Shown here piece by piece: positions 8,985 through 21,170 of a stretch of 27,422 nt of DNA. The number at the start of each line of letters is the position of its first letter. Within the stretch, counting starts at the first letter, position 1. The notes beneath the pieces are model-generated. The model saw only the letters and a program-made list of their open reading frames with translations. It ran no database searches and was not told the DNA's origin. The stretch covers positions 1 to 27,422 of the IMG/VR virus record IMGVR_UViG_3300032088_001599; one strand, 5' to 3'. Source of the stretch: a virus. The translations under genes were made by a program, and so were the position numbers.

Positions 8985-9875
8985 TTATTTTCCTATTGCG
9001 TTACCGTATATGTGTACGTGAACTCTGCTTGTATAATTATATCCACGTTGTATGGCTTCATCGGCAATACTGGCTTCAGTTTGTACTAAGCCTTCAAACG
9101 TGCCACCAACTCCCATAATCCATACAGGGAAGTTACAGCCGGCATCTCTGAACATTTTTGTGTTCTCTTCTACTTCCTTCCAACTTTCTTCTGTACCATT
9201 TACTACGAACTTTAATTGACCTTTATTACTTACTTCAGCATACCTACCAATTACTTCTGGCTTAATTGCTTTCTTTGGCTTCTCACCAGCAGTACTCCAC
9301 AGTTTAGGACTTAGACTCCAGTACCATTCTCTGCCGTCTGCCCAATTAGAATACTCACGTTGCACCCATTCAGCAAACTCATCACTAATAGGTCTAGTAC
9401 CATTTGTTTCCACAGTAACATTCATTGGTTGATTCTTTCTGCGTTTGAACTCTTCGATAATGTTCTTCATACCAGGCTGTGTATTTTTAAGCATTGGCTC
9501 GCCGCCTGTAAACACCATATGAGCAGACTGCCCTGTTACAGGATGTACAAATTGGGAGTGCGGTAGAAGTGCTGTAAGTTCGTCTACTGCCTCTTCCACC
9601 GTCTTATCTGTTATTAAGTGCTTATACTTTTTACTCCAAGTATAACTGCTATCACAACCTTTATCAAACACAGGCAAATCAAATACATTGTCTATGTTTG
9701 TAATATCTATTGTTTCATATGGTAGTTCATATGTGTCAGGGTTGGTTGGATCTTTTTGTCCAAACCCATTACATTGTAAATTGCATAGAAAAAATCTCAT
9801 CCATAGACTAGGTATGCCTACATAAGCACCTTCTCCTTGTGCTGAATAGAATGTTTCGCTATACTTTAATGTCAT
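8985..9875 (-). CDS. queE: QueE-like 7-carboxy-7-deazaguanine synthase (radical SAM)
   Basis: This 296-residue protein matches QueE: FYSAQGEGAYVGIPSLWMRF at about 9-28, the radical-SAM glycine motif TGGEP (123-127), VETNGT (155-160) and SLSPK (187-191). QueE turns 6-carboxy-tetrahydropterin into 7-carboxy-7-deazaguanine. The cluster cysteines are unusual: Cys31 and Cys35 keep the first spacing, but the third appears to be Cys74 in GCDSSYTW, which matches the usual CDTxxTW after an insertion. The same extended form is, to my recollection, common in T4-like marine phages. Its start shares a TAATG junction with FolE, so the two are coupled. Bacterial QueE is usually near 210-230 residues, so this one is long. 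Confidence 0.85.
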   Translation of the reverse strand: MTLKYSETFYSAQGEGAYVGIPSLWMRFFLCNLQCNGFGQKDPTNPDTYELPYETIDITNIDNVFDLPVFDKGCDSSYTWSKKYKHLITDKTVEEAVDELTALLPHSQFVHPVTGQSAHMVFTGGEPMLKNTQPGMKNIIEEFKRRKNQPMNVTVETNGTRPISDEFAEWVQREYSNWADGREWYWSLSPKLWSTAGEKPKKAIKPEVIGRYAEVSNKGQLKFVVNGTEESWKEVEENTKMFRDAGCNFPVWIMGVGGTFEGLVQTEASIADEAIQRGYNYTSRVHVHIYGNAIGK

Positions 9876-10564
9876 TATTTTCCGCAGGCGTATTGTGTTT
9901 GAAGTTTAATGTTATCCATAAATTCTTTTTGCACTTTTGCTTCTTCTTTAAAAGCACCTTCTAATACAGTTGTTTGTGTTAAACTGCTATGTGCTAATAC
10001 ACCTCTATTCTCAACACAACCGTGTGTTGCTTGAATATAGACACCTAAGTTTTTACTACCTGTTGCTTTCATTATTTCTCTTGAAATATCATTAGCAAGT
10101 TCTTCTTGTAGTGTACCACGTCTTGCACACCATTGTGCAATTCTTGTATATTTGCTTAAACCAATTAATGTTTCTCCAGCAATAATACCAATGTATGCTA
10201 CGCCTTTAACTGGCTGGTGATGATGCGAACACATACTTTGTATTTCACTTCTAACCACCAACATACCTTTATACCCTTCTTCTATATCATTAGGAAATGC
10301 TGTGGCATTAGGCATATTGTTATATCTACCCCACATAAGTTCATTGATATACATTTTAGCAAGACGTTTAGCAGTACCTTGACTGTTAGGGTCATTAAAT
10401 CTGTCTATAATAAGTGAATCTAATACACCTTCGAAGTGAGGAATAAGTTCTTCGATAAGTAACTGGTCATCTCCCTCATCCATAAACTGAGAAACATTAT
10501 CACTTGCCCAATACTTATGACCTGCTTCTTTAATTCTTTTTGTTATCTTCTCACTAGTTTTCAT
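9875..10564 (-). CDS. folE: GTP cyclohydrolase I (FolE)
   Basis: This 229-residue protein shows all the hallmark motifs of GTP cyclohydrolase I: CSHHHQP (112-118) with the zinc ligands Cys112 and His115, GLSKYTRIAQWCARRGTLQE (135-154), and THGCVENRG (180-188) with His181 and zinc ligand Cys183. The enzyme converts GTP to dihydroneopterin triphosphate, the first step of both folate and 7-deazaguanine synthesis. With QueE overlapping it and a QueD-like gene about 4 kb upstream, the 7-deazaguanine role is the likely one here. Its ribosome site, GGAG, is clear. Confidence 0.93.
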   Translation of the reverse strand: MKTSEKITKRIKEAGHKYWASDNVSQFMDEGDDQLLIEELIPHFEGVLDSLIIDRFNDPNSQGTAKRLAKMYINELMWGRYNNMPNATAFPNDIEEGYKGMLVVRSEIQSMCSHHHQPVKGVAYIGIIAGETLIGLSKYTRIAQWCARRGTLQEELANDISREIMKATGSKNLGVYIQATHGCVENRGVLAHSSLTQTTVLEGAFKEEAKVQKEFMDNIKLQTQYACGK

Positions 10565-10576
10565 TCTTTTTTTCTC

Positions 10577-10777
10577 CTATTTATTGACGTGGATGTCATT
10601 TATTTTAATTTTCAATTCTTCTATTTCTCGTTTGAGTTCTAGTTTCTCAATCTTCTCGTTTGCTAACTCTGTGTCATCCATATGATGCTCGTAATCATCA
10701 GCAATCTTTTTATCCAACTCTCTGTGTCTTGTTTCTAAGACTTTAAGATGATTCTGTAAACTTTGTAATGTACTCAT
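10577..10777 (-). CDS. DUF465-like short coiled-coil protein
   Basis: This 66-residue protein is predicted to be almost entirely helical: LQNHLKVLETRHRELDKKIA followed by a second helix rich in Glu/Lys (NEKIEKLELKREIEELKIKI). This is the antiparallel two-helix pattern of the DUF465 (YdcH-like) family found in many Gram-negative bacteria and their phages. The function is not known. It overlaps the upstream gene by 35 bases and has a good AAGGAAG ribosome site, which supports the ATG at 10777. Confidence 0.7.
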   Translation of the reverse strand: MSTLQSLQNHLKVLETRHRELDKKIADDYEHHMDDTELANEKIEKLELKREIEELKIKINDIHVNK

Positions 10778-10979
10778 TGTCTTCCTTCAATATTCCATTT
10801 TCCCAATTCTCACATACATCATTTGCATAATGTATACTTTTGTCTCGCACATCAACTGTACCAAACTGTTCGTAGTTCTTCCATAAGTGTACAACAAAAC
10901 CATCCGGGTTGTCAACCACTTCTGCTTTTTTATGTATTTTATTCATTGTTTCGTGTTCTCCTGTAAATCCGCCACACAT
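10743..10979 (-). CDS. Hypothetical protein, 78 aa
   Basis: This protein of 78 residues starts MCGGFTGEHETMNKIHKKAE. I chose the ATG at 10979, which shares a TAATG junction with the stop of the phosphoribosyltransferase gene; a frame extension of four codons upstream would need a TTG start. It contains a YEQFGTVDVRDKSIHYANDV segment of likely alpha/beta type and no known motif. It is co-translated with the phosphoribosyltransferase. Confidence 0.6.
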   Translation of the reverse strand: MCGGFTGEHETMNKIHKKAEVVDNPDGFVVHLWKNYEQFGTVDVRDKSIHYANDVCENWENGILKEDNEYITKFTESS

Positions 10980-11452
10980 TATACCCACCAATCCTCATAA
11001 GGAAATACTATCCAATTCTCCTCATCTGGTAAAACATTTACTGCTCTAAAACTTACAGCATCAAAGTTACTGGATTCTTTAGCAAATATTGTAGCATACT
11101 TTACTTCTCCGTGCAAGAAGATTTCAGGTAATTTTTCAACTTCATCATTTATACCTTGTAGTGTTGCACCTGAATCATTTATGTCGTCAAATATTAAAAT
11201 GTTTTTGCCTACATAGTGTGTTAAAATATGATTTAATGTTTCTGCATCTTTGATGTCTCCGTCTCTGGTTTGCCATCTAAATCCTTCAAATGGAACTTCA
11301 TAATAATGACTGAGCATAACCCCGCCAGTATATCCACCCCTACCTGGTCCTAATATAACATCAGGTCTATATCCTTCCTTTGCCATTTCTCTTGTAATGG
11401 TTCCCATATAGGAGTTCCACTTATCCCAAGATACATAAGTTTTATCTACCAT
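10979..11452 (-). CDS. Phosphoribosyltransferase (xanthine/hypoxanthine type)
   Basis: This 157-residue protein has the type I phosphoribosyltransferase PRPP-binding loop, ILIFDDINDSGAT (85-97), preceded by the GPGRGG loop (35-40). The C-terminal VFPYEDWW resembles the end of xanthine-guanine phosphoribosyltransferase, where 'WIVFPWE' is typical. Such enzymes link PRPP to a purine base to make a nucleotide. It could salvage host purines or act on a modified base, which is inference. It lies between the GalE/191-aa genes and FolE with one-base junctions on both sides. Confidence 0.8.
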   Translation of the reverse strand: MVDKTYVSWDKWNSYMGTITREMAKEGYRPDVILGPGRGGYTGGVMLSHYYEVPFEGFRWQTRDGDIKDAETLNHILTHYVGKNILIFDDINDSGATLQGINDEVEKLPEIFLHGEVKYATIFAKESSNFDAVSFRAVNVLPDEENWIVFPYEDWWV

Positions 11453-12027
11453 TATTCAATCTCCTTAAGATTTACAACTAAAGTTTCATAATTTTCTGTG
11501 TCGTTATACTGCTTACAAATTTCTGCAATATCTATATCATTGAACTCGCACCATTTAGAAATACGTTGTGCGATGTTTACGTCTACTGAAGTATTAAAAT
11601 TACCTTCTTGTAAGTTGTTTTCAATTGGTACACTAAACTTGTATGCTCTAATCATTTGCATTACAACGTGTTTAAGACCATTTGTGAATGCGTTACCAAT
11701 ACTTCTAATTTTAGGGTTTAATAGTTTACCTCTATTAACACATCGCAAATAAATCTCGCCTGAGATTTCAAGTAGTTCTAATTCTACTGTATGTGTATCT
11801 GGATGAAAGGTTACCTTGGCTACATTGAACACTTCTTTTCTAGAATCAAATTGTGTGTTCAAACAAAAGTAATTTATACTTTCCCATATTTCTTTATCGT
11901 TTACAGGATAAAGTTCTTTTAAATCTAGTATCTCGTTGCCAACACCAATTGCTTTTACAACGTCCATAACTGGTACAGCACTTCTTTCAATTACTACGCC
12001 TGCTTTTCTTTGTTTAATTACACTCAT
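11452..12027 (-). CDS. Hypothetical protein, 191 aa
   Basis: This 191-residue protein overlaps GalE by 4 bases and the phosphoribosyltransferase by one base, so all three belong to one transcript. It has alternating strands and helices with a VFNVAKVTFHPDTHTVELEL beta part in the middle and a predicted helical C-terminal half. There is no transmembrane segment and no recognised catalytic or nucleotide-binding motif. Confidence 0.65.
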   Translation of the reverse strand: MSVIKQRKAGVVIERSAVPVMDVVKAIGVGNEILDLKELYPVNDKEIWESINYFCLNTQFDSRKEVFNVAKVTFHPDTHTVELELLEISGEIYLRCVNRGKLLNPKIRSIGNAFTNGLKHVVMQMIRAYKFSVPIENNLQEGNFNTSVDVNIAQRISKWCEFNDIDIAEICKQYNDTENYETLVVNLKEIE

Positions 12028-13001
12028 TTCTTAACCCAATTATAATGTGTTCTTACCATTTCTTCTAAGTCTAATGTAGGAGTCCAATTTAATGTTTTAC
12101 TAATTGATGTTATGTCTGCACTGGTGTAGTCTGGATCTCCTTCTCGTCTATCGCCATTAACAACATCAATTTGTTTTCCTGTAATTGATTCGACAACTTT
12201 AATAACTTCAGTAATACTTCTAGGATTACCTCCGCCACAGTTGAATACATCTATATTACCTGTGTCTTCTTTAGTCATCATATTATCGACACTTTTTCTA
12301 ATTGCTCTAGCAACGTCTACCACGTGAGTATAATCTCTAACTGGTGTACCGTCAGTTGTACTATAGTCTGTTCCATTTAGTGTAAACTGCTTGTCGTTAA
12401 TTGCACAGTCAACTAGTATAGGGATAAGATGCATTTTAGGATCTACAGTATAACCATTTCTATTATTTAAATCTGCACCTGCTACATTAAATGGTCTGAT
12501 ATGAGTGATGTTCAAACCAAATTGTGCAAAGTCATTAAGTATATGTTCGCCATACATTTTAGTTTTGCCGTATGGACTAACTGGATTTAGTTCAGTTGTT
12601 TCGTGTATAGTTCCGTCTACATTAGTTTCTTTAATGTCTCCGTACACACTACTTGAACTAATAAACACAAAGTTCTTTACTTCGTGTTCTATACAAGCAC
12701 CTAACAATGTAATTAAATGAGATATATTATTTTCATAATATGTATGAGGTTCCTCAAAACTTTTACCAACCATAGTAGAAGCCGCACAATGTACTACTGC
12801 TACAGGCTTAAACATTTTCATAATTGCATTGACACCTTTATTATTGATATCCTCAGGAAAATTAGTTACACCACTTGATGCAGTAAATTTCCTAGGATTC
12901 CTATCTATACTAATAGGTGTATATCCTTTCTCTTCTAATTCCAAACAAACTTGGTGTCCAACGTATCCACTGCCACCTGTTACTATTACTGTTCCACTCA
13001 T
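12024..13001 (-). CDS. galE: NAD-dependent epimerase, UDP-glucose 4-epimerase (GalE) type
   Basis: This 325-residue extended SDR protein has the NAD-binding GGSGYVG (9-15), the active-site serine in ISSSSVYG (114-121) and the catalytic YGKTK pair Tyr144/Lys148. HIRPFNVAGAD and VRDYTHVVDVARA, both typical of GalE, are present. It is expected to interconvert UDP-glucose and UDP-galactose or a related sugar. It sits next to a glycosyltransferase (4-base gap), so it may supply that enzyme's donor sugar. The exact sugar cannot be read from sequence. Confidence 0.88.
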   Translation of the reverse strand: MSGTVIVTGGSGYVGHQVCLELEEKGYTPISIDRNPRKFTASSGVTNFPEDINNKGVNAIMKMFKPVAVVHCAASTMVGKSFEEPHTYYENNISHLITLLGACIEHEVKNFVFISSSSVYGDIKETNVDGTIHETTELNPVSPYGKTKMYGEHILNDFAQFGLNITHIRPFNVAGADLNNRNGYTVDPKMHLIPILVDCAINDKQFTLNGTDYSTTDGTPVRDYTHVVDVARAIRKSVDNMMTKEDTGNIDVFNCGGGNPRSITEVIKVVESITGKQIDVVNGDRREGDPDYTSADITSISKTLNWTPTLDLEEMVRTHYNWVKK

Positions 13002-13005
13002 TTTC

Positions 13006-14055
13006 TTATCCTTTTAATATGTCATACATCTTAGAACCATCAAAGAAATGTTTTTTAAGAATCTTTCTTTGTTCTTCAACTTTGTCTACCAATTCATCAT
13101 TAGAGTCTAAGATATTTCTAATGAATGCAATAAGTTTATCCTTATTATTTAGGTAATTATCCCAATCTTCTGTCCAAATACTTGGATAAAGAAAGTCTTT
13201 TATAGCCATTTCGCTATAACTTAATCTGTCAGGAACAATAGGTGCGGAACCAACAATGGCGCCTTCGTACCAACTTATTCCTAAAGTTTCTTGTAAGTTC
13301 GCACTGAACACTATTTTACTTCTGCTTAAAGCAAGATGATATTCATCTTTTGTAAAATTGTGTTCTTGTGCTATTACAAACTCCACATCATCCATTGACT
13401 TTGAAAGGTCTTTGAATATTTCGACTTGTTTTTCTGGTGCTAGTCTATGTGGGAACATCACCATATCCATTTTGCTTGTTGGTATGTTATACTGAGATAA
13501 TTCATTATCCAAATACTCCATAGGCCAACCTACTTGATGAATCTTGCTACTATCCAATTCCGGAAATGCGTTAAGGAACATATCTATATGAAATTGTGTA
13601 GCAAAGAAGTTATCATCGAAGGTATTATACATTGCCTTTTCTGTATCTCTTACCCATTCCTCTTTGTGACCAATAAGTCTTCCCAAGAAATCAGCAGGGT
13701 CATACGCACCGGCGTGCCACATACCTCCGAATTTAACATCTTTTTCTAGTAATCTAGCCATATACTTTGCTTGTAAAACTGTTGGGTTCCAAGCATCTGT
13801 ATATAGGAAGTAGTCGCCATCTTGTATTGTACCGTCAGCAAACATTTGACTAATAGTCTTTAACTGTTCACTTTTCCAATAGTTCGTGCCACTAAAGTTG
13901 AGAAATGCTCCAGGAGTAGTATCTTTTGGAGCATCACTAGGACCTGTAATAACTTGAACTTCCAACCCTGCGTTTTGCATTTGCGTAGGCAAATACTTTT
14001 TCCACTGGGCAGTATATCTAGTTTCTACTGGTTCTATCTCAACTATATAAATCAT
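13006..14055 (-). CDS. Glycosyltransferase, GT-B fold (family 1/4-like)
   Basis: This 349-residue protein has a C-terminal half typical of GT-B transferases: FPHRLAPEKQ (201-210), a VIAQEHN strand, and ETLGISWYEGAIVGSAPIVP (256-275), in which the glutamates of the E-x7-E motif contact the donor sugar nucleotide. The N-terminal half holds an acceptor-side Rossmann fold. The target could be the DNA base, a virion protein or host envelope; it cannot be told. Its start shares an ATGA overlap with the small gene upstream. Confidence 0.75.
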   Translation of the reverse strand: MIYIVEIEPVETRYTAQWKKYLPTQMQNAGLEVQVITGPSDAPKDTTPGAFLNFSGTNYWKSEQLKTISQMFADGTIQDGDYFLYTDAWNPTVLQAKYMARLLEKDVKFGGMWHAGAYDPADFLGRLIGHKEEWVRDTEKAMYNTFDDNFFATQFHIDMFLNAFPELDSSKIHQVGWPMEYLDNELSQYNIPTSKMDMVMFPHRLAPEKQVEIFKDLSKSMDDVEFVIAQEHNFTKDEYHLALSRSKIVFSANLQETLGISWYEGAIVGSAPIVPDRLSYSEMAIKDFLYPSIWTEDWDNYLNNKDKLIAFIRNILDSNDELVDKVEEQRKILKKHFFDGSKMYDILKG

Positions 14056-14222
14056 TTATCTTCCTTTTTGTCGCCAAGATTACCATAATCAATTACACCA
14101 GTTACAGGTTCATTTAATTTGCCTGAATCTTGTGGCTCCTTATAATCCTTGTCTGGTGTAATCTTAACGGTTTCCTTATCGGAGTCCATTTTAGTAAAAC
14201 CTTGTTTTTTAATATTAGGCAT
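14052..14222 (-). CDS. Small hydrophilic protein, 56 aa
   Basis: This reading frame of 56 residues starts MPNIKKQGFTKMDSDKETVK at an ATG at 14222 and ends with ATGA shared with the glycosyltransferase start. It overlaps the Hc1-like gene by 8 bases, so it fills the gap between the two. The composition is Lys/Asp-rich and hydrophilic, with a short VTGVIDYGNLGD segment near the end. No fold or function is recognised. Junction geometry on both sides is the main support. Confidence 0.65.
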   Translation of the reverse strand: MPNIKKQGFTKMDSDKETVKITPDKDYKEPQDSGKLNEPVTGVIDYGNLGDKKEDK

Positions 14223-14400
14223 TATTCTTTGATTCTTGAATCTCGCCTCTTCTTGTTTTACAAAGTTTTGAAATCTCCATTAGTGCTTTTCTGGCTCTGG
14301 TGCCTGCGGCTTTGTTACCACTAGCAACGAACTTTTCGTTCTCTTCGCCATACTCTGCAAATAGAGTTTTTAGTTTTAAATGTACTTCTAAGTTGTCCAT
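14215..14400 (-). CDS. Histone H1-like (Hc1-type) small basic DNA-binding protein
   Basis: The 61-residue protein has a predicted helical N-terminus and the stretch FVASGNKAAGTRARKALMEI (24-43) followed by SKLCKTRRGEIQE. The 'GNKAA..R.RK...E..KL.K..R.EI' pattern matches the Hc1 histone-like family first known from Chlamydia, which binds DNA and condenses chromatin. I chose the ATG at 14400, which has GGAG eight bases upstream; an upstream extension to 14487 would overlap the neighbouring gene by 71 bases. A role in packing or protecting phage DNA is inference. Confidence 0.65.
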   Translation of the reverse strand: MDNLEVHLKLKTLFAEYGEENEKFVASGNKAAGTRARKALMEISKLCKTRRGEIQESKNNA

Positions 14401-14416
14401 TATTTTTCTCCTTTGG

Positions 14417-14665
14417 TTATCGATTACCTTTCGGTTTTCTCCTGCGCCTTTTAGGTCTAGGAGTATAGTCTTCTTGTTCGTCCTCATACTCTGCTTTCTG
14501 CTGAGCCTGAGTCATCACAAGTCTCGCCAGTACTTCCGGCGACTTTTTTTCTAAAACAAAATCTTTAATTGCTTTAGAGAAAATCTCTTCGGCTTCGGAC
14601 TCTTCAAATAGAATTGATATTTCTAGCATTCCATCTACTTCGTCCATTCCATTAATTTTAGCCAT
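14417..14665 (-). CDS. Hypothetical protein with Arg/Lys-rich tail, 82 aa
   Basis: This 82-residue protein has an acidic first half (SILFEESEAEEIFSKAIKDF) and a basic tail with PRPKRRRRKPKGNR at residues 69-82. The tail could bind nucleic acid. It starts at a TAATG junction with the QueD-like gene and precedes the Hc1-like gene, so two small proteins with basic stretches sit side by side. No family is recognised. Confidence 0.65.
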   Translation of the reverse strand: MAKINGMDEVDGMLEISILFEESEAEEIFSKAIKDFVLEKKSPEVLARLVMTQAQQKAEYEDEQEDYTPRPKRRRRKPKGNR

Positions 14666-15210
14666 TAGTCATCTACCTCAGGGTCGAAAGTTGATTGGCT
14701 ATCATCTTTATGTGGATTTCCGCCTTCATACCAACTACCCTCTTTGTTGTTGCTTTCAACGACGCCATCGTCGTCATCCATTAAAGAACTGAATACATCA
14801 TCTATTGCATCAGTGTCTTCAAAACTTGGACCATCCATATCATCTACTGGATAATCCATTTCACAGCCGTTTTCATTATCTTCGGCTACTGAAATCTTTA
14901 CATAACGTCCTGGATACCTATCTTGTATCTGTTCCGCTAAATTGTCTGCTATCATTTCGCAGGACTTGTTATTAAGTTGTATAACTTCTTCGTTATATAA
15001 ACTTTCAAGCCATCTTTTAAACTGAATAAACTCAATGTCTCTATCATCGTGAAACACTTCTATCCACACTTTAAAATGAAATATGTGTCTATGTTTGTAT
15101 CCTAAAAAGGACACATCATACTCGTCGCCTGTGGCAGTTGCAGGGTTTGTGTCTGCACCAGGATAGTAATGTATACCTTCCTTGCTAAATGTTACCCATA
15201 TACTTCTCAT
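14665..15210 (-). CDS. queD: QueD-like T-fold protein (6-carboxy-tetrahydropterin synthase), divergent
   Basis: This protein of 181 residues carries a likely zinc triad in YKHRHIFHFKV (His40, His42, His45), corresponding to the His-x-His of QueD/PTPS enzymes, a segment IEFIQFKRWL (59-68) at the place of the usual 'DFxxLK' strand, KSCEMIADNL (82-91) at the place of the 'PTxENxAxxI' helix, and VAEDNENGCE near 108-117 at the place of the 'ET' motif. The last 60 residues are an acidic extension of no known type. QueD makes 6-carboxy-tetrahydropterin for QueE, so it would link FolE and QueE in this genome. The identification is moderate because sequence identity to QueD is low. Confidence 0.55.
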   Translation of the reverse strand: MRSIWVTFSKEGIHYYPGADTNPATATGDEYDVSFLGYKHRHIFHFKVWIEVFHDDRDIEFIQFKRWLESLYNEEVIQLNNKSCEMIADNLAEQIQDRYPGRYVKISVAEDNENGCEMDYPVDDMDGPSFEDTDAIDDVFSSLMDDDDGVVESNNKEGSWYEGGNPHKDDSQSTFDPEVDD

Positions 15211-15392
15211 TACCACCCTCCGTCGATGTTTTCCATTACTTCATTCATATGACCTAACATTTGTGTGATAGGTTCATCATAGTCGCCTATCTCATAGTCG
15301 ACGTCATCTTGTTCTTTGAACATTGCCTTTACTTGGTCACCGTATTGGATAACCATTTCAAGTTGTTCTCTCATTTCATCTGATATTGCCAT
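15210..15392 (-). CDS. Small acidic protein, 60 aa
   Basis: This 60-residue protein starts MAISDEMREQLEMVIQYGDQ, is Glu/Asp/Met-rich and mainly helical, and ends in DGGW. I chose the ATG at 15392 because it shares a TAATG junction with the membrane-protein gene upstream and has AAGGAGG in front of it. A longer open frame upstream lacks a better start. The function is unknown. Confidence 0.65.
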   Translation of the reverse strand: MAISDEMREQLEMVIQYGDQVKAMFKEQDDVDYEIGDYDEPITQMLGHMNEVMENIDGGW

Positions 15393-15805
15393 TAAGCCTC
15401 CTTGCTTGGGTCCCACATAACTAAGTTTTTCTTTTTTAGTCTGTTGGTAACAATGGTCCATCTATTCTGTTCTTCTTTCCATTCTTTTAACCACTTATGC
15501 CCATCACGTTCTGCATCTATAAAGATTGCATTGGTAAATGCTAATGGTAGTAAAATTCCCACGTGTATAAAGATACTTACAAGTGTATTATAGTTGAAAA
15601 ATCCTAAGTAGTTTGCCGCTAAGAATCCAAAGAACACACTCCATACTGTAAACAATACTAGCATAAAGTAAGTCTGTAGACTTGGGTCTTTAATTACACT
15701 TAACGGATTGTATCTCACATCCATTACACGTCTCCAGCCATTTACAAGAGCCATTACAGTTCTTCTGAATAGACTTGGCTTTTTCATCATTGGTTCTATT
15801 TTCAT
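15392..15805 (-). CDS. Two-span membrane protein, unknown function
   Basis: This 137-residue protein has two predicted membrane spans (about 46-66 and 75-95) with a basic N-terminus (RRTVMALVNGWRRVMDVRY) and a basic C-terminal tail (KEWKEEQNRWTIVTNRLKKK). It is probably an inner-membrane protein. Similar two-span proteins are found in T4-like marine phages (recollection). Holin function is possible but nothing in the sequence proves it. Confidence 0.65.
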   Translation of the reverse strand: MKIEPMMKKPSLFRRTVMALVNGWRRVMDVRYNPLSVIKDPSLQTYFMLVLFTVWSVFFGFLAANYLGFFNYNTLVSIFIHVGILLPLAFTNAIFIDAERDGHKWLKEWKEEQNRWTIVTNRLKKKNLVMWDPSKEA

Positions 15806-15806
15806 T

Positions 15807-15914
15807 TCATTCTCCTTCTAATCTAACTCTAATATATTCTTTAATAACGTGCAAACCGTATGCTAACCAAGTTACTACGATTAGGCTAAAGAATAACAAC
15901 TTTATTTCTACCAC
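15807..15914 (-). CDS. Candidate 35-aa membrane microprotein, GTG start
   Basis: A GTG at 15914, inside the last codons of the outer-membrane barrel gene (AAGTGGTAG), opens a frame of 35 codons that ends TGA at 15809-15807, just before the ATG of the two-span membrane protein. The product starts with a short charged part (VEIK) and then a hydrophobic run LLFFSLIVVTWLAYGLHVI, with a basic tail (KEYIRVRLEGE). It is a plausible single-span microprotein filling an otherwise empty gap. The ribosome site is weak (TAGGT). Support is modest. Confidence 0.45.
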   Translation of the reverse strand: MVEIKLLFFSLIVVTWLAYGLHVIKEYIRVRLEGE

Positions 15915-16576
15915 TTAATACCTATTGTAACACCTAAAATATTATTGTCAATCGGATCTTCTGTATAAGTGTTTGTTATGCCTAAAACTAAACCATTATC
16001 AAAGTTGTAATTCAATGACGTCTCATTCCTAACATAGTCTTCTGCTTCGTCACCGAACTCAACCAAATACTTGTTGGTAAAGTTCACTTTGTCAGACAGT
16101 TTATAGAAAAACCATAAACTGTTTCTGTAAATTATTTCATCTACTAAGTCACTAGTTAAGTATCCTATTGAAAACTCATTACTTGCTTTAAATTTTTCAG
16201 TTCTCAATAACTTGTAACCATAACCAAGTGCCATACTGACTCTTTGTTCATCTGTTCTAAACTTGTCTATATCATATGTAGATGTGCTGACTACATAATG
16301 TTTAGGAGCAAAGGCATAAATTAATTTATGATTGAGGTATAACTCATTAGTACTTTCAACATCACTTTGTGTTTGATACATATAGTCTACTTCTAATGCT
16401 CTTTGCCAGTTGCCTTTTTCTGTTGAACTGTCATACGCAATTTTAAATGTTGCATCATCACTGTTTACAAAAGTGCCTCCAATTTTAGCACTACCACTTG
16501 CATAAAGGTTAACAGACAGTACTAATAATCCAACTGTTATTAACAAAAATAAAACTGCTCTTTTGATGTTGCTCAT
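15908..16576 (-). CDS. Outer-membrane beta-barrel protein (DUF481-like)
   Basis: This 222-residue protein begins with a signal peptide (basic MSNIKR, then a hydrophobic run AVLFLLITVGLLVLSVNLYA, cleavage near residue 26). The mature part alternates aromatic and polar residues in short strands separated by turns and ends in ITNTYTEDPI...IGIKW, with a C-terminal aromatic residue as in outer-membrane barrels recognised by BamA. The pattern resembles DUF481 (YdiY-like) proteins. A phage-coded outer-membrane protein could alter receptor access or permeability of a Gram-negative host. The function is unproven. Confidence 0.7.
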   Translation of the reverse strand: MSNIKRAVLFLLITVGLLVLSVNLYASGSAKIGGTFVNSDDATFKIAYDSSTEKGNWQRALEVDYMYQTQSDVESTNELYLNHKLIYAFAPKHYVVSTSTYDIDKFRTDEQRVSMALGYGYKLLRTEKFKASNEFSIGYLTSDLVDEIIYRNSLWFFYKLSDKVNFTNKYLVEFGDEAEDYVRNETSLNYNFDNGLVLGITNTYTEDPIDNNILGVTIGIKW

Positions 16577-16577
16577 A

Positions 16578-17111
16578 TTATTCCAAGTGTTCCTTTTCTA
16601 TTGGTTCTAAATCTTCTGCTGTTTCTAGCACAAATTCCTCTTCTTCTTCCGCCCATTCTAACCTACTTTCTAATATACCAAATGCTTCATTTAAATCTAT
16701 TCCATCTGGGTCCATTATCCAATAATCATCACTTTTATCTGAAATTGTAATACTTTCATCTAATGTTCCTGCAAAATCCATTGATGGTTCATAATACATC
16801 AAATCTGCACTAAAGTCTGGATTGTTATCTAGGAATGTTCTAATTGCTTCTGCAGGTGGACTCCAAGCACTCTGAAAGTTACCAGTTAAATGTGCGTGGT
16901 CCGGACCATCAGGATCAAACTCAAAATATTGTACTTCGTCTTCGTTAATTTCCCACTTAGTACCCCAAGTGTTTACTGCTACATTGTAGTCCCATTCTCC
17001 AATAGGACAAAGTGTTTCTAGCATACCTACATCTGAAAAACTTTTTTGTAACTTTTTAAGTTCCTCAGCAGGACCTTCAATGTGTATGTGATTATCGCAC
17101 CAATTAGGCAT
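16578..17111 (-). CDS. Api92/DUF1281-like ferredoxin-fold protein
   Basis: This 177-residue protein begins MPNWCDNHIHIEG, the signature of the Api92-like/DUF1281 family (ferredoxin-like fold) found in phages and plasmids, and carries WGTKW (about 49-53) and FQSAWSPP (about 79-86), both conserved in that family. The family's role is unknown. The C-terminus is a long acidic helix rich in Glu. It overlaps the upstream gene by 8 bases and ends one base before the barrel gene. Confidence 0.8.
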   Translation of the reverse strand: MPNWCDNHIHIEGPAEELKKLQKSFSDVGMLETLCPIGEWDYNVAVNTWGTKWEINEDEVQYFEFDPDGPDHAHLTGNFQSAWSPPAEAIRTFLDNNPDFSADLMYYEPSMDFAGTLDESITISDKSDDYWIMDPDGIDLNEAFGILESRLEWAEEEEEFVLETAEDLEPIEKEHLE

Positions 17112-17337
17112 ATTTTTCTCCTATCATATTTTCTAAATTACCTGCTTCACTTTCTGCTTGGTCAATATCTTGAAAGTTCCACTCAGCAAGTCCACAGTCG
17201 TTACAATCATAACCTACTTCTGTTTCAGTTGGTCCACTACTTCTACAGTCGTGCCACCAAAATTGTAACTTATCATTTATTATACCGGAATTCCTGGCAG
17301 AAGTCAAGTCCTTATTTGACAACTTTATCTCCAACAT
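17104..17337 (-). CDS. Small cysteine-containing hypothetical protein
   Basis: This protein of about 77 residues has WWHDCRSSG and, 12 residues later, YDCNDCG, an arrangement that could bind a metal, plus an acidic C-terminal half. The start is uncertain: ATG at 17361 would overlap the upstream gene by 50 bases, ATG at 17337 by 26, and a TTG at 17322 has the best ribosome site (GGAG). I list the middle choice. No family is recognised. Confidence 0.5.
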   Translation of the reverse strand: MLEIKLSNKDLTSARNSGIINDKLQFWWHDCRSSGPTETEVGYDCNDCGLAEWNFQDIDQAESEAGNLENMIGEKYA

Positions 17338-17833
17338 ATTCTGTAAAGTCTGTGTAAACATCTCTACTTCTTAAATCGTGTAAACTGTGACACCAAACAC
17401 CACTGTTACTTGCATTAAAATGCTTGTCATCTAGTTTAATAGTTGTATTATAGTTGTGTTGGGACATATAAGGTATTGGTACACTTATCATACTAATAAA
17501 TTTGTTGTATTCATTCCAACTAGTAAGTAAAACTTCTTCTGAATACTTTACATTATAATCCAATGTTACCCAATAACCATATGCCAATAAGTCCAAGATA
17601 GTCTTATTCCATTCTAACCAATCATCTTTCACTTTAGGTTCAAAACAATATCCACAACCTAAATAGACGTGTTTGACTTTGTGCTGTTTGGCACGTTTGT
17701 CAATGTCTTTTGCAGTTTGGCACCCAACAACAAATAAAGTCTCAACACCCTTTAATGGAGTATTTTCAACTTCTACGCCTGTGAAGTATGTTGGGTTTTC
17801 GCCAAAGTCTTTTCTACCATCTATTGTTGCCAT
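17312..17833 (-). CDS. Conserved hypothetical protein, 173 aa
   Basis: This 173-residue protein starts MATIDGRKDFGENPTYFTGV and has VPIPYMSQHNYNTTIKLDDK (about 118-137) followed by GVWCHSLHDL. The 'NYNT.IKLDDK.FN.SN.GVWCHSLH.L' pattern is one I recall from uncharacterised proteins of T4-like cyanophages. It is Tyr/Trp/Cys-rich and soluble. It overlaps the MDR dehydrogenase by 13 bases, so it is in the same unit as DpdA and the two oxidoreductases. The function is unknown. Confidence 0.72.
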   Translation of the reverse strand: MATIDGRKDFGENPTYFTGVEVENTPLKGVETLFVVGCQTAKDIDKRAKQHKVKHVYLGCGYCFEPKVKDDWLEWNKTILDLLAYGYWVTLDYNVKYSEEVLLTSWNEYNKFISMISVPIPYMSQHNYNTTIKLDDKHFNASNSGVWCHSLHDLRSRDVYTDFTEYVGDKVVK

Positions 17834-18765
17834 TTTATATAACCTCGTGAGTATGTTTTACTTCTATCGTTTGCATCTTTGAATGCTATTTCTAATTCTG
17901 TATCTCTGTCGTATTCATTTGTCCATAATGTGCTAGTATCAATTGTGCCATCTCTAACAAGTTCAACACCTAACACCATTGAGTCTATAAAGTTTGCATC
18001 TCTAGGACTAGGGAATAATATCTTTTTATTTTCCCATAACATTTTACTAGTATCAACATTTAAGTTCTCAGTTTTTTCTGCACATATTAAATGTACACCA
18101 TTTGTTTTTAACATATCCAAAGTGTTAATATATTTAGGATCTGAACTAATATCAAATACAGCATCAAATATAAAATTACCATTATCTAAATCTGACTGTT
18201 TTAAAAATGTACACTTTGTTTTATTCCAAAACTTCTTGTTGCTGTTACCAATTACATAAACGTTTGGCTTACTTGGTAGTGCAAACTCTAATGTTTTGTA
18301 AACTACCTGTGCTAAAAAGCCAGTACCAATAATTAAATATTTCTTTCTCTTAAAGAATGTTTTAGGTTGTCCCATAAACATTCTCAAATAGTTATCTACT
18401 ATGTTAATACCACAAGCAACTGGCTCTATGATATATTTAGGATCTGCTTCAGGAACCTTTACATAAGTACCATATTTTGCAACATATTCATCTGCAAAAC
18501 CAGGCTCACCTCTAGTAGCAACATAGTCACCTACTTTAAATCCAATCTCAGGATTTGCAACTTCTGTAATTACTCCCAAGCATTCGTGTCCTTGTATCTC
18601 TTTTGGCAATGTAATAAAGTCTCCATTATACATAGCAACATCACTTCTGCAAACACCTGTGTAAATACTTTTAACTTTGATGTCATCGCCTGTTGGCTTT
18701 GGACAGTCATATGTTGTTACACAAATATCTTTTTCGCCTTTTGTGTAAAATAATCTATTAGTCAT
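17821..18765 (-). CDS. Zinc-type MDR alcohol dehydrogenase-like protein
   Basis: This 314-residue protein is a medium-chain dehydrogenase: GVCRSDV with Cys39, IQGHECLGVI with His60-Glu61, VGDYVATRG (78-86), IEPVACGIN (113-121), and a Rossmann GTGFLA (147-152). The catalytic-zinc residues are present, but the four-cysteine structural-zinc loop of classical alcohol dehydrogenases is missing. The protein is shorter than the usual 340-350 residues. It oxidises or reduces a secondary alcohol such as a sugar or polyol with NAD(P). It overlaps the Gfo/Idh/MocA gene by 8 bases, so the two probably act in one pathway. Confidence 0.8.
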   Translation of the reverse strand: MTNRLFYTKGEKDICVTTYDCPKPTGDDIKVKSIYTGVCRSDVAMYNGDFITLPKEIQGHECLGVITEVANPEIGFKVGDYVATRGEPGFADEYVAKYGTYVKVPEADPKYIIEPVACGINIVDNYLRMFMGQPKTFFKRKKYLIIGTGFLAQVVYKTLEFALPSKPNVYVIGNSNKKFWNKTKCTFLKQSDLDNGNFIFDAVFDISSDPKYINTLDMLKTNGVHLICAEKTENLNVDTSKMLWENKKILFPSPRDANFIDSMVLGVELVRDGTIDTSTLWTNEYDRDTELEIAFKDANDRSKTYSRGYIKWQQ

Positions 18766-19660
18766 TTTCTTTATATACCTCTAATTGTTTGTGTATCCAT
18801 AAATCAATTTTTTGATGCCAATCATATGGATCATTAGGTGCATTTTCTAACATACTTCCATATGCTTCGTTTGGACATAATCCAAAGGGCCATCTAAGAC
18901 TGGAACCATCTGCAAAGTTAAGGTTAATAGATTGGTCATCTATTCCTTCTTTCCAACTTGCCTGTATAGTAATAGGTATGTTGTTTAAACTGTAAATGTC
19001 TACAGCCTTATCGCAGACGTCGTATACGCCATCTTCTTTGTATACGCCATATGCAGTCCCACTTATATTTTCTAAGTTCCATTTCTGCACTTTCCAATTT
19101 GAAAAACGTTCAAACTGCTCAGGCTCTTCATCGAACAAGTGTAACATAAAACAATACAAGTGTGGGAATAAATCGTGTGCAACTCCTCCCCAAGCATATT
19201 CTTTGTTTGTACTCCAATTGCCTGGATTAGGTATTCTGTCTTTGTTTAACCAATTAATAGTAACATCTGTGACATCATACTGTCCTGAAAACTCATCTAG
19301 TATTCCGTAAGTTTCTCTATACAAGTTATTTTTAACTAGCATAATTTTACTGTTAGGAAATCTGTCTATAGCATCTTGCCAGTCTTGGGCACTAGGCAAA
19401 CCAGGCTTCTCTACAAAAATATTTGTAACACCTGCTTCGCCTAATTGATTTAATAATTCTAAATGGGTGTAATTAGGAGTGCAAATTACTGCCAATTCAA
19501 AATCATTATTTGAAATCGCATCATCTAGATCCTCATAGTCAGGATTAGTAAGAACATTGTGCCTGTCAACAGTTACAACATCATACCCAACTTTTTTCAG
19601 TTGTGGTAAGTATACATTATAACCTATACCGCCAAGTCCTACTAATACTGCTTTAGGCAT
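18758..19660 (-). CDS. Gfo/Idh/MocA-family oxidoreductase
   Basis: This 300-residue protein has the NAD(P)-binding GLGGIG (8-13), TPNYTH (61-66), the family-defining EKP (84-86) and the catalytic-region GGVAHDLFPH (158-167) with Asp163 and His167. Members oxidise or reduce sugars, inositols or related ring compounds. The substrate is unknown. It starts inside the end of the DpdA-like gene (8-base overlap) and overlaps the MDR dehydrogenase at its other end, giving a three-gene coupled set. Confidence 0.85.
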   Translation of the reverse strand: MPKAVLVGLGGIGYNVYLPQLKKVGYDVVTVDRHNVLTNPDYEDLDDAISNNDFELAVICTPNYTHLELLNQLGEAGVTNIFVEKPGLPSAQDWQDAIDRFPNSKIMLVKNNLYRETYGILDEFSGQYDVTDVTINWLNKDRIPNPGNWSTNKEYAWGGVAHDLFPHLYCFMLHLFDEEPEQFERFSNWKVQKWNLENISGTAYGVYKEDGVYDVCDKAVDIYSLNNIPITIQASWKEGIDDQSINLNFADGSSLRWPFGLCPNEAYGSMLENAPNDPYDWHQKIDLWIHKQLEVYKEND

Positions 19661-21170
19661 TTTTAAATTCTGCCTCCAAGTTTGCTAACACTTCATCATT
19701 CTCATCAAAAGAATCATCATCTGCTTCTGTAACTTCTTCATCAAATAAACTTTGGAATAATTTGTTATTACCATCTTTATGAGGATTATTGTTTAGTGCT
19801 TCTAAGAATAATGTTGCTTCGTCAAGTAGTCCGTGTGGATCTTCACTAGCAAAAAGTTCTTGTACAAAAGTGTTAAAGTATAAAATGTTTCTAGGAACCC
19901 ACTGACTAAACTCTTTGCTTTTGTCATTTCTTTTAACCTTTTCCCAGTCTCTCCAATCTGGCTGATACTCTTGAGTTTCAATTAGTGCCAATTGATTTGC
20001 TCTTTGAACTGCTCTGATGTGCATATAAACATTGTGTATCATTAAAATACCATATGTAAAACTATCCCAACTTGTTTTGCCTTCTTTACCAATTTTGTTT
20101 AACATACCTGGCTTGTACCAGTTTACATCTTTAACTTTTGTTCTAAGACCAACTGGACTTTCAAAAGGAAATGGTAAGTCACCAATGTTTTCATTGTTAA
20201 GTTTGTTATCAAAACATTTGTCCATTAAGTAACTTTGTCTGTTTGCACTTAAAACAGTTTGTGAATAAACCAAACCATTTGCACTACTGATAAACGGACT
20301 TGCACTATCAAAACTGATTGTGATATTAGGATTAACTTTTCTAAGTTCTCTTTGAATTATAGTGAACATTACTGCCCAATCTAACTTACTTGTACCAAGA
20401 TAATGTATCCAATCTTTGCCTTCAATATTGCCGTCATCTCTCATCACAATAAGACGTTTGAGACACATCTTCATATCTCTCATATGGTTACCACCCATTG
20501 CCCATCCTTCAAATGGATAGTCTTTTACTGCATCATACCATATGCTGGCATCTTCCCAATGTGTGCCTTGCAACACATTTAAGAATTTTGTTTTGCCTTG
20601 TCTGTGTTGTACAAAGAAATCATTGTTATGTAATGTACATTTTAAACATTCATCAAAGTCTTTGAGTCCTGTACGTTCCCTTAGTTCAGGCTTACTTGCC
20701 CAACTAGGTACATCAAGTGTCATACTCCAGTCTGCTGTATGCTCTAACCAGTTTAGAATTTTATGTCTTGTTTTGTCAGCATCTCCTTTGTATCCAGGAT
20801 CGCCTGGTTTCTCAAAAAAGTTCTCCCAGTCAAATTTAATAACACCTTTACCAATTTGGAAACCACCTGAGTCTCCTAGTATCATAGTGTTATCTCTATC
20901 ACGGTCCTGAATAATGTATTCTAACTTCTTGCTTTTCTCCATATCGAGATAGGCGTGTCCTGCCGAATACAATCCCATATTATATTTGAAATAACCTTTG
21001 TCTGCGTCTAAAAAGTTTAGACCTTCAAAGCCGTGTTCGAAGCCTTCTGGAATCCTGCCATCAGGGATATAGCCTTCTATGTGTTTACATCTGCCTAGTA
21101 GTTCTGTGTAGAACCCACTAATAGCAGGCAAATAGACTGCAAAATCACCTCTATGTTTGGATAAATCCAT
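19653..21170 (-). CDS. dpdA: DpdA/TGT-like 7-deazaguanine DNA-base transglycosylase
   Basis: This 505-residue protein follows the tRNA-guanine transglycosylase core in order: GDSGGFQ (99-105, Asp100 as general acid/base), TLDVP (151-155, for FDEC), NVLQG (198-202), GWAMGGN (222-228), HYLGTSKLDW (256-265) and SFDSASPF (286-293, with Asp288 at the place of the nucleophile). The zinc-binding CxCxxC near the C-terminus of bacterial TGT is not seen, as I would expect for the DpdA branch that modifies DNA. The C-terminal third has a long acidic tail. It directly follows gp45 with a one-base gap, which fits a role at phage DNA. A tRNA-acting enzyme cannot be excluded. Confidence 0.75.
   Translation of the reverse strand: MDLSKHRGDFAVYLPAISGFYTELLGRCKHIEGYIPDGRIPEGFEHGFEGLNFLDADKGYFKYNMGLYSAGHAYLDMEKSKKLEYIIQDRDRDNTMILGDSGGFQIGKGVIKFDWENFFEKPGDPGYKGDADKTRHKILNWLEHTADWSMTLDVPSWASKPELRERTGLKDFDECLKCTLHNNDFFVQHRQGKTKFLNVLQGTHWEDASIWYDAVKDYPFEGWAMGGNHMRDMKMCLKRLIVMRDDGNIEGKDWIHYLGTSKLDWAVMFTIIQRELRKVNPNITISFDSASPFISSANGLVYSQTVLSANRQSYLMDKCFDNKLNNENIGDLPFPFESPVGLRTKVKDVNWYKPGMLNKIGKEGKTSWDSFTYGILMIHNVYMHIRAVQRANQLALIETQEYQPDWRDWEKVKRNDKSKEFSQWVPRNILYFNTFVQELFASEDPHGLLDEATLFLEALNNNPHKDGNNKLFQSLFDEEVTEADDDSFDENDEVLANLEAEFKNA

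Follow-up and report, generated by a model that had tools for sequence, protein, structure and literature searches.

A candidate phage locus for the insertion of 7-deazaguanine into DNA and its glycosylation

We describe a locus in a 27,422-base marine virus sequence (IMG/VR record IMGVR_UViG_3300032088_001599, positions 1 to 27,422, the whole of which is referred to here as the window) in which a gene for a putative glycosyltransferase (GT) accompanies a dpdA-like gene and genes for deazaguanine synthesis, all on the minus strand (Table 1). The dpdA-like gene encodes a 505-amino-acid protein with the predicted fold of the tRNA-guanine transglycosylases (TGTs). On balance we favour the view that the locus is a phage DNA-hypermodification module, by which a deazaguanine would be inserted into DNA and then glycosylated. 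An initial annotation of this DNA, made from the sequence alone, had proposed deazaguanine modification and passed over the neighbouring GT gene, which is the larger finding. Deazaguanine DNA involving DpdA is already established (PMC6884629), and our comparison suggests that the GT partnership is the new part, within the literature that we searched.

Linkage of the putative glycosyltransferase gene with dpdA

In the long loci that we sampled the GT gene accompanies dpdA no less regularly than the gene for FolE or QueE does. Two reciprocal samples were taken, each being the best 80 viral loci by similarity, chosen by the gene for a 183-amino-acid QueD-like protein in one case and by the GT gene in the other; the loci are partly on common contigs, so the samples are not independent. 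The 26 loci of at least 20 kb picked by the 183-amino-acid gene all have dpdA, the GT gene and a gene for a putative sliding clamp, with FolE in 25, a conserved 173-amino-acid protein in 25, QueE in 21, GalE in 21, and Gfo/Idh and alcohol-dehydrogenase-like (ADH-like) genes in 4 each. The GT gene picked 17 loci of at least 20 kb, and dpdA, the 183-amino-acid gene, the putative clamp gene, FolE and QueE are each present in all 17, the 173-amino-acid gene in 15 and GalE in 12. Over the full 80 loci of the first sample the counts are 71 for dpdA, 78 for GT and 74 for the 173-amino-acid gene, and over the full 80 of the second they are 73 for dpdA and 79 for the 183-amino-acid gene.

Two further samples have less flanking sequence. 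In a set of 28 loci (L001-L028), many of them cut short, GT, the 183-amino-acid gene, FolE and a phosphoribosyltransferase-like gene were each found in 18, Gfo/Idh in 21, ADH-like in 20, the 173-amino-acid gene in 20 and QueE in 15. A set of 56 representative loci (from clustering at 72%) has flanks that are mostly 3 kb, and there the counts were 45 for the putative clamp, 34 for the 183-amino-acid gene, 32 for GT, 28 for the 173-amino-acid gene, 14 for ADH, 11 for Gfo, 8 for FolE and 2 for QueE. Every copy of the GT (124), 183-amino-acid (120) and 173-amino-acid (110) genes in the phage loci counted is on the strand that carries dpdA. When 18 large records were searched over their whole length, GT was found in 14 (in PhiXhv-12 as a partial match, E 6.2e-14) and the 183- and 173-amino-acid genes in 13 each.

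Named phages give the linkage in other forms. In PA5oct the dpdA, GT and 183-amino-acid genes are consecutive. Phosso has its dpdA gene about 167 kb away, and has the 183-amino-acid, GT, FolE and QueE genes together, near an annotated polymerase and clamp. In PhiXhv-12 four genes follow one another (L469, 3911-7997), a Gat-QueC-like gene, one for a PIG-L deacetylase-like protein, GT and a Gfo/Idh-like gene, and the dpdA-like gene is some 90 kb away; the names Gat-QueC and Gfo/Idh are our own reading. The PhiXhv-12 GT matches the GT profile at E 7.5e-38 and has 24% identity to the GT of the window. As a separate observation, this row may represent an amino-sugar form of the modification proposed here.

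The assignment as a glycosyltransferase comes from the family more than from the one protein. Glycos_transf_1 (PF00534) was matched by 16 of 25 family members at E <= 0.1, the best at 3.4e-7, and the family profile matched a solved structure described as a putative glycosyltransferase (8xsg) at E 2.4e-7; the code 8xsg occurs in a paper on an Actinobacillus glucosyltransferase (PMC12159676). The window protein gave no match in PHROGs at E <= 0.01. On these sequence comparisons the 349-amino-acid protein looks like a putative glycosyltransferase, and a GT-B or GT4-like candidate.

Bacterial dpdA-like loci

Homologues of the dpdA-like gene are also present in bacterial contigs. We found 41 such loci in the genome_contigs set and excluded five (L410-L412, L429 and L444) as phage-like, with a putative clamp gene adjoining dpdA; the remaining 36 may be prophage, plasmid or chromosome. 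GT is present in 8 of the 36, with 37.7-46.0% identity to the window GT, and exactly the same 8 loci have a transporter-type gene of the Vut_1 type. Vut_1 is a family of vitamin and preQ0 transporters to which YhhQ belongs. YhhQ is a preQ0 transporter (PMC6884629).

Three of the eight transporter-type genes were scanned with Pfam, of which two pass the Vut_1 cut-off and one (L437) is below it (25.3 vs 27.2), and the other five were identified with a profile seeded with those three. Two identical sets of 8 among 36 would have a chance of 3.3e-8 if the loci were independent, which they are not. In the tree, however, the 8 loci occupy three separate positions, and both GT and the Vut_1-type gene are present in L420 but missing from its very close relatives L419 and L421. 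The two genes lie on the other strand from dpdA in L417 and L425. When genome_contigs was scanned with the PA5oct GT no homologue was confirmed, although there are homologues in that set, because of the limit to exact peptide patterns in such scans.

Two side observations concern the same loci. A large protein with no Pfam family in the two members scanned (the seeds being of 538-895 amino acids) is encoded in 29 of the 41 dpdA-like loci. Near it, in some of the loci L413-L447, is a short open reading frame (ORF) that we read as recombinase-like, and this may indicate a bacterial island.

Genes for deazaguanine synthesis

Pfam, PHROGs, NCBIfam and PADLOC were the family libraries used for the window proteins. 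The initial annotation had FolE and QueE encoded on one strand, and the matches to PF01227 and phrog_2076 bear this out. The NCBIfam models are less favourable, those for FolE giving at most 131 bits, which is below their cut-offs, and those for QueE only weak scores, none near its cut-off (the best 42.5 bits vs 240). Among 16 records with relatives FolE is present in 14 and the QueE family in 15, one of these at 4.1e-4, and of the 18 large related records 16 have ordinary QueD (PF01242). The presence of the pathway genes in related genomes, put forward with the initial annotation as a check, holds for most of the records, and PA5oct also carries FolE, QueD and QueE.

The QueD-like protein of the initial annotation, which is likely to have been the 183-amino-acid product, needs more qualification. 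A six-frame search of the whole window with PF01242 gave nothing at E <= 0.001, and the same model was touched by 2 of 26 members of the 183-amino-acid family at E <= 0.1, the best at 0.0092. Profile-profile comparison (hhalign) of the family with seven QueD rows gave a probability of 55 and E 1.2e-4. H16, H42, H44, E112 and D113 are invariant across the 26 rows. The seven QueD rows all have a cysteine (C27) immediately ahead of the HxH pair, and this residue has no counterpart in the 26-row alignment. We read the 183-amino-acid protein as a putative, distant QueD-like paralogue, and in relatives the true QueD gene is elsewhere, away from the 183-amino-acid gene. The proposal that four genes serve a single pathway is supported by the synteny that many contigs show for the dpdA-like, FolE, QueE and QueD-like genes, with the reservation that the local QueD would be the divergent paralogue.

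QueC (PF06508) was matched in 8 of the 18 large records at E <= 0.001, with 5 passing the cut-off. It is clear in Vibrio 2.275.O, Voja-6 and PhiXhv-12, and was not found in PA5oct or Phosso. G018 has a partial match (25.5 bits, model positions 154-208), and the close IMG/VR relatives G001-G004 have weak matches at model positions 2-61. Two of these four ORFs were inspected (L041 and L042); by their motifs they look like NAD synthetase, and they were not counted as QueC. IMG/VR records may be fragments, so absence of the gene from them is no proof. As there is no convincing QueC in the close relatives, the route encoded by these phages seems to stop at 7-carboxy-7-deazaguanine (CDG), from which a host QueC could extend it.

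The TGT-fold protein

The initial annotation called the 505-amino-acid protein DpdA/TGT-like, and its predicted structure agrees, although Pfam (including PF01702), PHROGs, NCBIfam and PADLOC gave no match to it at E <= 1. A search against TGT families had been proposed as a check, and it succeeded for distant relatives, 4 of the 15 scanned passing the PF01702 cut-off (26.3 bits). When solved structures were searched by sequence, neither the protein nor its alignments retrieved anything beyond chance matches.

Homologues were found in 26 phage records, 11 of them PA5oct-like Pseudomonas records with 39.9% identity over the full length. The longest contig with a relative in the first scan has 339,794 bp, and jumbo phages of the PA5oct group carry relatives too. 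One viral scan confirmed relatives in at least 589 stretches. Viral scans seeded by single proteins (two distant dpdA relatives) confirmed no relative. For the alignment, 198 complete ORFs of at least 380 amino acids with the motif [AG]DSGGFQ were clustered at 72% to give 57 rows. An earlier AlphaFold2 model from 15 close rows was poor (pLDDT 51.5), and that from the 57 rows has pLDDT 92.5 and pTM 0.91.

All 50 matches listed by Foldseek for this model against the PDB are TGTs, the best with E 7.5e-9 and prob 1.00, and all 50 entries listed by VIA-align are TGTs too, with Z 18.3-19.3 over about 300 residues. The eighth-ranked Foldseek match in a viral structure library was the nt-1 protein (E 1.9e-9). 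Profile comparison by hhalign gave the 505-amino-acid family a probability of 90.3 with E. coli TGT and likewise 90.3 with the nt-1 protein; that for 9g DpdA was 0.6, with no detectable sequence link. D100, D153, G202, H256, G259, D288 and the DSGGFQ motif are invariant in 57/57 rows. We take D100, D153 and D288, in order, to be the catalytic aspartates, from their correspondence to those of Zymomonas TGT; rows were collected by the DSGGFQ motif, which includes D100, so of the aspartates D153 and D288 alone are unaffected by this selection. Going by the model, the protein has the fold of the TGT superfamily.

A tree of 102 rows was made with 98 family rows, nt-1 and three canonical TGTs (those of E. 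coli and of two of the bacterial genomes, the only ones included). The three canonical TGTs are separated from the 98 family rows by a branch of 5.36 changes per column, with support 100; nt-1 groups with them weakly (support 25) and through a long branch. A placing of the 505-amino-acid protein inside the tRNA-acting TGTs had been named as an outcome that would refute DNA modification, and in this tree the family is outside them.

Proposed pathway and alternatives

In the pathway that we propose, FolE, QueD and QueE would make CDG, and the TGT-fold enzyme would replace guanines of the phage DNA with the deazaguanine, perhaps close to replication forks. The GT encoded nearby would then put a sugar on the base, either once it has been inserted or while it is still free. 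The sugar or the 7-substituent would be provided or modified by GalE and, in this clade, by the Gfo/Idh and ADH-like enzymes, the genes for these last two not being constant. The resulting bulky base would shield the phage DNA from host nucleases. We are fairly confident that a deazaguanine goes into DNA: the TGT fold, the separation from tRNA TGTs, the FolE, QueD and QueE genes of the large relatives and the conserved neighbourhood of polymerase and putative clamp all support that part of the initial annotation, and from these we infer the DNA substrate. That the GT acts on the inserted deazaguanine is a closer judgement, and one that we lean towards. It is a more tentative suggestion, possible but short of probable, that glycosylated 7-deazaguanine occurs in the DNA of a widespread set of large phages and of some alphaproteobacteria by way of TGT-fold insertion, of CDG in phages without QueC and of an imported base in bacteria, together with a dedicated GT.

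There are several points that weigh against insertion followed by glycosylation. Vibrio 2.275.O and Voja-6 have dpdA-like genes without this GT, and GT was not matched in G002 or G019, the G002 locus being cut by a contig end. The window GT itself has no Pfam match over the cut-off, and QueD was found in just 7 of 14 records of a first set, the misses being shorter contigs. The TM-scores of the 505-amino-acid model to the TGTs are modest, at 0.36-0.42 by query length for the matches listed by Foldseek. C.C..C...H, the zinc site of canonical tRNA TGTs, is absent from the protein, and is present in 4 of the 57 rows, being visible in L027 and L028. For the bacterial loci, 28 of the 36 have neither GT nor the transporter gene in the visible flank, although some of the contigs are short. 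Finally, most of the phage loci are related, so their synteny may be due in part to common descent, which less easily explains the contexts in PA5oct, Phosso, PhiXhv-12 and the bacteria.

The alternative that survives best, although we think it unlikely, is that the DNA has a plain deazaguanine, either CDG or preQ0 made with the help of host QueC, and that GT and the sugar genes have another role. The FolE, QueE, QueD and dpdA-like genes in large relatives would suit this, as would the 28 bacterial loci without GT in view, and known phages carry dPreQ0, dADG, dPreQ1 and dG+ (PMC6884629). It fits less well with the joint presence of GT and dpdA in 26/26 and 17/17 long phage loci, with the Phosso GT gene that is beside FolE and QueE without dpdA, and with the bacterial GT genes that are found with a Vut_1 gene and dpdA.

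Members of the GalE, Gfo/Idh and ADH-like families often take part in sugar metabolism, and with all three matched in the window one could suppose that they and GT form a glycan or nucleotide-sugar cluster, for surface or virion glycosylation, with dpdA as a chance neighbour. Glycosyltransferase clusters for modification of capsular polysaccharide are indeed described for jumbo phages (Iyer 2021, PMC7824862). However Gfo and ADH are variable (4/26) whereas GT, the 183-amino-acid gene and dpdA persist, and the bacterial GT genes go together with dpdA and a Vut_1-type gene, and we regard a chance association as improbable. Action of the 505-amino-acid protein on tRNA in place of DNA is very improbable, since although the solved structural relatives listed are tRNA TGTs, including a tRNA-bound archaeal enzyme, the zinc motif is lost, the three canonical TGTs included in the tree split off from the family, and 10/10 family-carrying bacterial genomes searched also hold a canonical TGT (501-533 bits).

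Relation to known systems

With regard to the known phage DpdA systems, those of 9g, CAjan and nt-1 (the nt-1 protein being DpdA2, PMC6884629) resemble the window locus in having a TGT-fold enzyme with FolE, QueD and QueE, and 9g (L320, 36-3960) has the annotated polymerase, clamp and dpdA in the identical order. They differ in that the close relatives of the window have no convincing QueC and that GT is a frequent partner, and for 9g also in the dpdA protein sequence, as noted above. PA5oct, with its homologue of the 505-amino-acid protein and FolE, QueD and QueE, was stated to have a system for deazaguanine synthesis and incorporation by Iyer 2021 (PMC7824862), and the description as available in that source names no glycosyltransferase in it.

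For the proposed sugar transfer the analogy is with the T4-type DNA glucosyltransferases, as GT would decorate a base already in DNA, although the base here would be deazaguanine and not hydroxymethylcytosine, and the window GT has no counterpart among the PHROGs at the threshold given above. The huimycin cluster (PMC7439116) also has FolE/QueD/QueE-type genes and a glycosyltransferase for which a deazapurine is the proposed substrate, but has a small molecule as product, a QueC-type gene and a methyltransferase, with no dpdA seen and no DNA involved in the available part of that account. A 2025 study of large aquatic phages lists glycosyltransferases in the core gene set and notes that DNA glucosylation has been reported as a role (PMC12619734). 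The deazaguanine bases reported by Hutinet 2019 carry small groups, and the available text of the Paride phage paper has no mention of deazaguanine. We found no report of glycosylated deazaguanine in DNA in the literature searched, parts of which were available as partial texts, and the claim to novelty has that scope.

If glycosylation is confirmed, the regular GT partner would point to a sugar-bearing purine in parallel to the glucosylated cytosine of T4, and matching host restriction enzymes and glycosylases would be predicted. There would also be a function for the large family described above, the main branch of which has no library match, and leads for two conserved orphan proteins, those of 183 and 173 amino acids. 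The proposal can be tested now, because phages of the PA5oct group and Phosso have been isolated and have the genes.

Other genes in the window

Table 1. Genes of the locus and their neighbours in the 27,422-base window
Product	Position	Strand	Basis and remarks
QueE-like, 7-carboxy-7-deazaguanine synthase	8985..9875	-	phrog_2076 QueE-like, E 3.2e-52
FolE, GTP cyclohydrolase I	9875..10564	-	PF01227 130 bits vs cut-off 27, E 8.6e-38; phrog_2197 4e-44
Phosphoribosyltransferase-like	10979..11452	-	PF00156 7.7e-9
GalE-like NDP-sugar epimerase, possible sugar-donor supply	12024..13001	-	TIGR01179 galE 271.1 bits vs cut-off 262.3
Glycosyltransferase-like protein, 349 aa	13006..14055	-	Family and profile matches; frequent dpdA-like partner
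Divergent QueD-like protein, 183 aa	14665..15216	-	phrog_17812 (function unknown) 1.3e-30
Conserved protein, 173 aa	17312..17833	-	No match over a cut-off
Alcohol-dehydrogenase-like oxidoreductase, 314 aa	17821..18765	-	PF08240 1.4e-10
Gfo/Idh/MocA oxidoreductase, 300 aa	18758..19660	-	PF01408 4.8e-10; directly downstream of dpdA-like gene
DpdA-like transglycosylase, TGT fold, 505 aa	19653..21170	-	Predicted structure; no library matches
Putative sliding clamp, 247 aa	21172..21915	-	Phosso homologue; upstream of dpdA-like gene
DNA polymerase	21986..24688	-	phrog_262 4.7e-202

The dpdA-like gene was said in the initial annotation to be one base after the sliding clamp gene and near that for the polymerase. 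The spacing to the 247-amino-acid ORF and the polymerase are as stated, but we call this ORF a putative clamp only because its homologue in Phosso is annotated as a sliding clamp (E 1.5e-73). In PHROGs it falls in phrog_12062, of unknown function, and comparison with solved structures gave chance matches alone.

The 173-amino-acid family matched no known family. In PA5oct the 173-amino-acid gene is about 28 kb from dpdA.

Two more genes are near the start of the window, both on the minus strand. The product of 1341-2417 (358 amino acids) matches the arginine deiminase family (PF02274, 25.3 bits vs cut-off 22.8) and is perhaps an amidinotransferase in our reading; among 16 records searched, the four close relatives G001-G004 encode it, with 77-83% identity. 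The gene at 584-1348 encodes a metallophosphoesterase (PF00149 6.8e-12).

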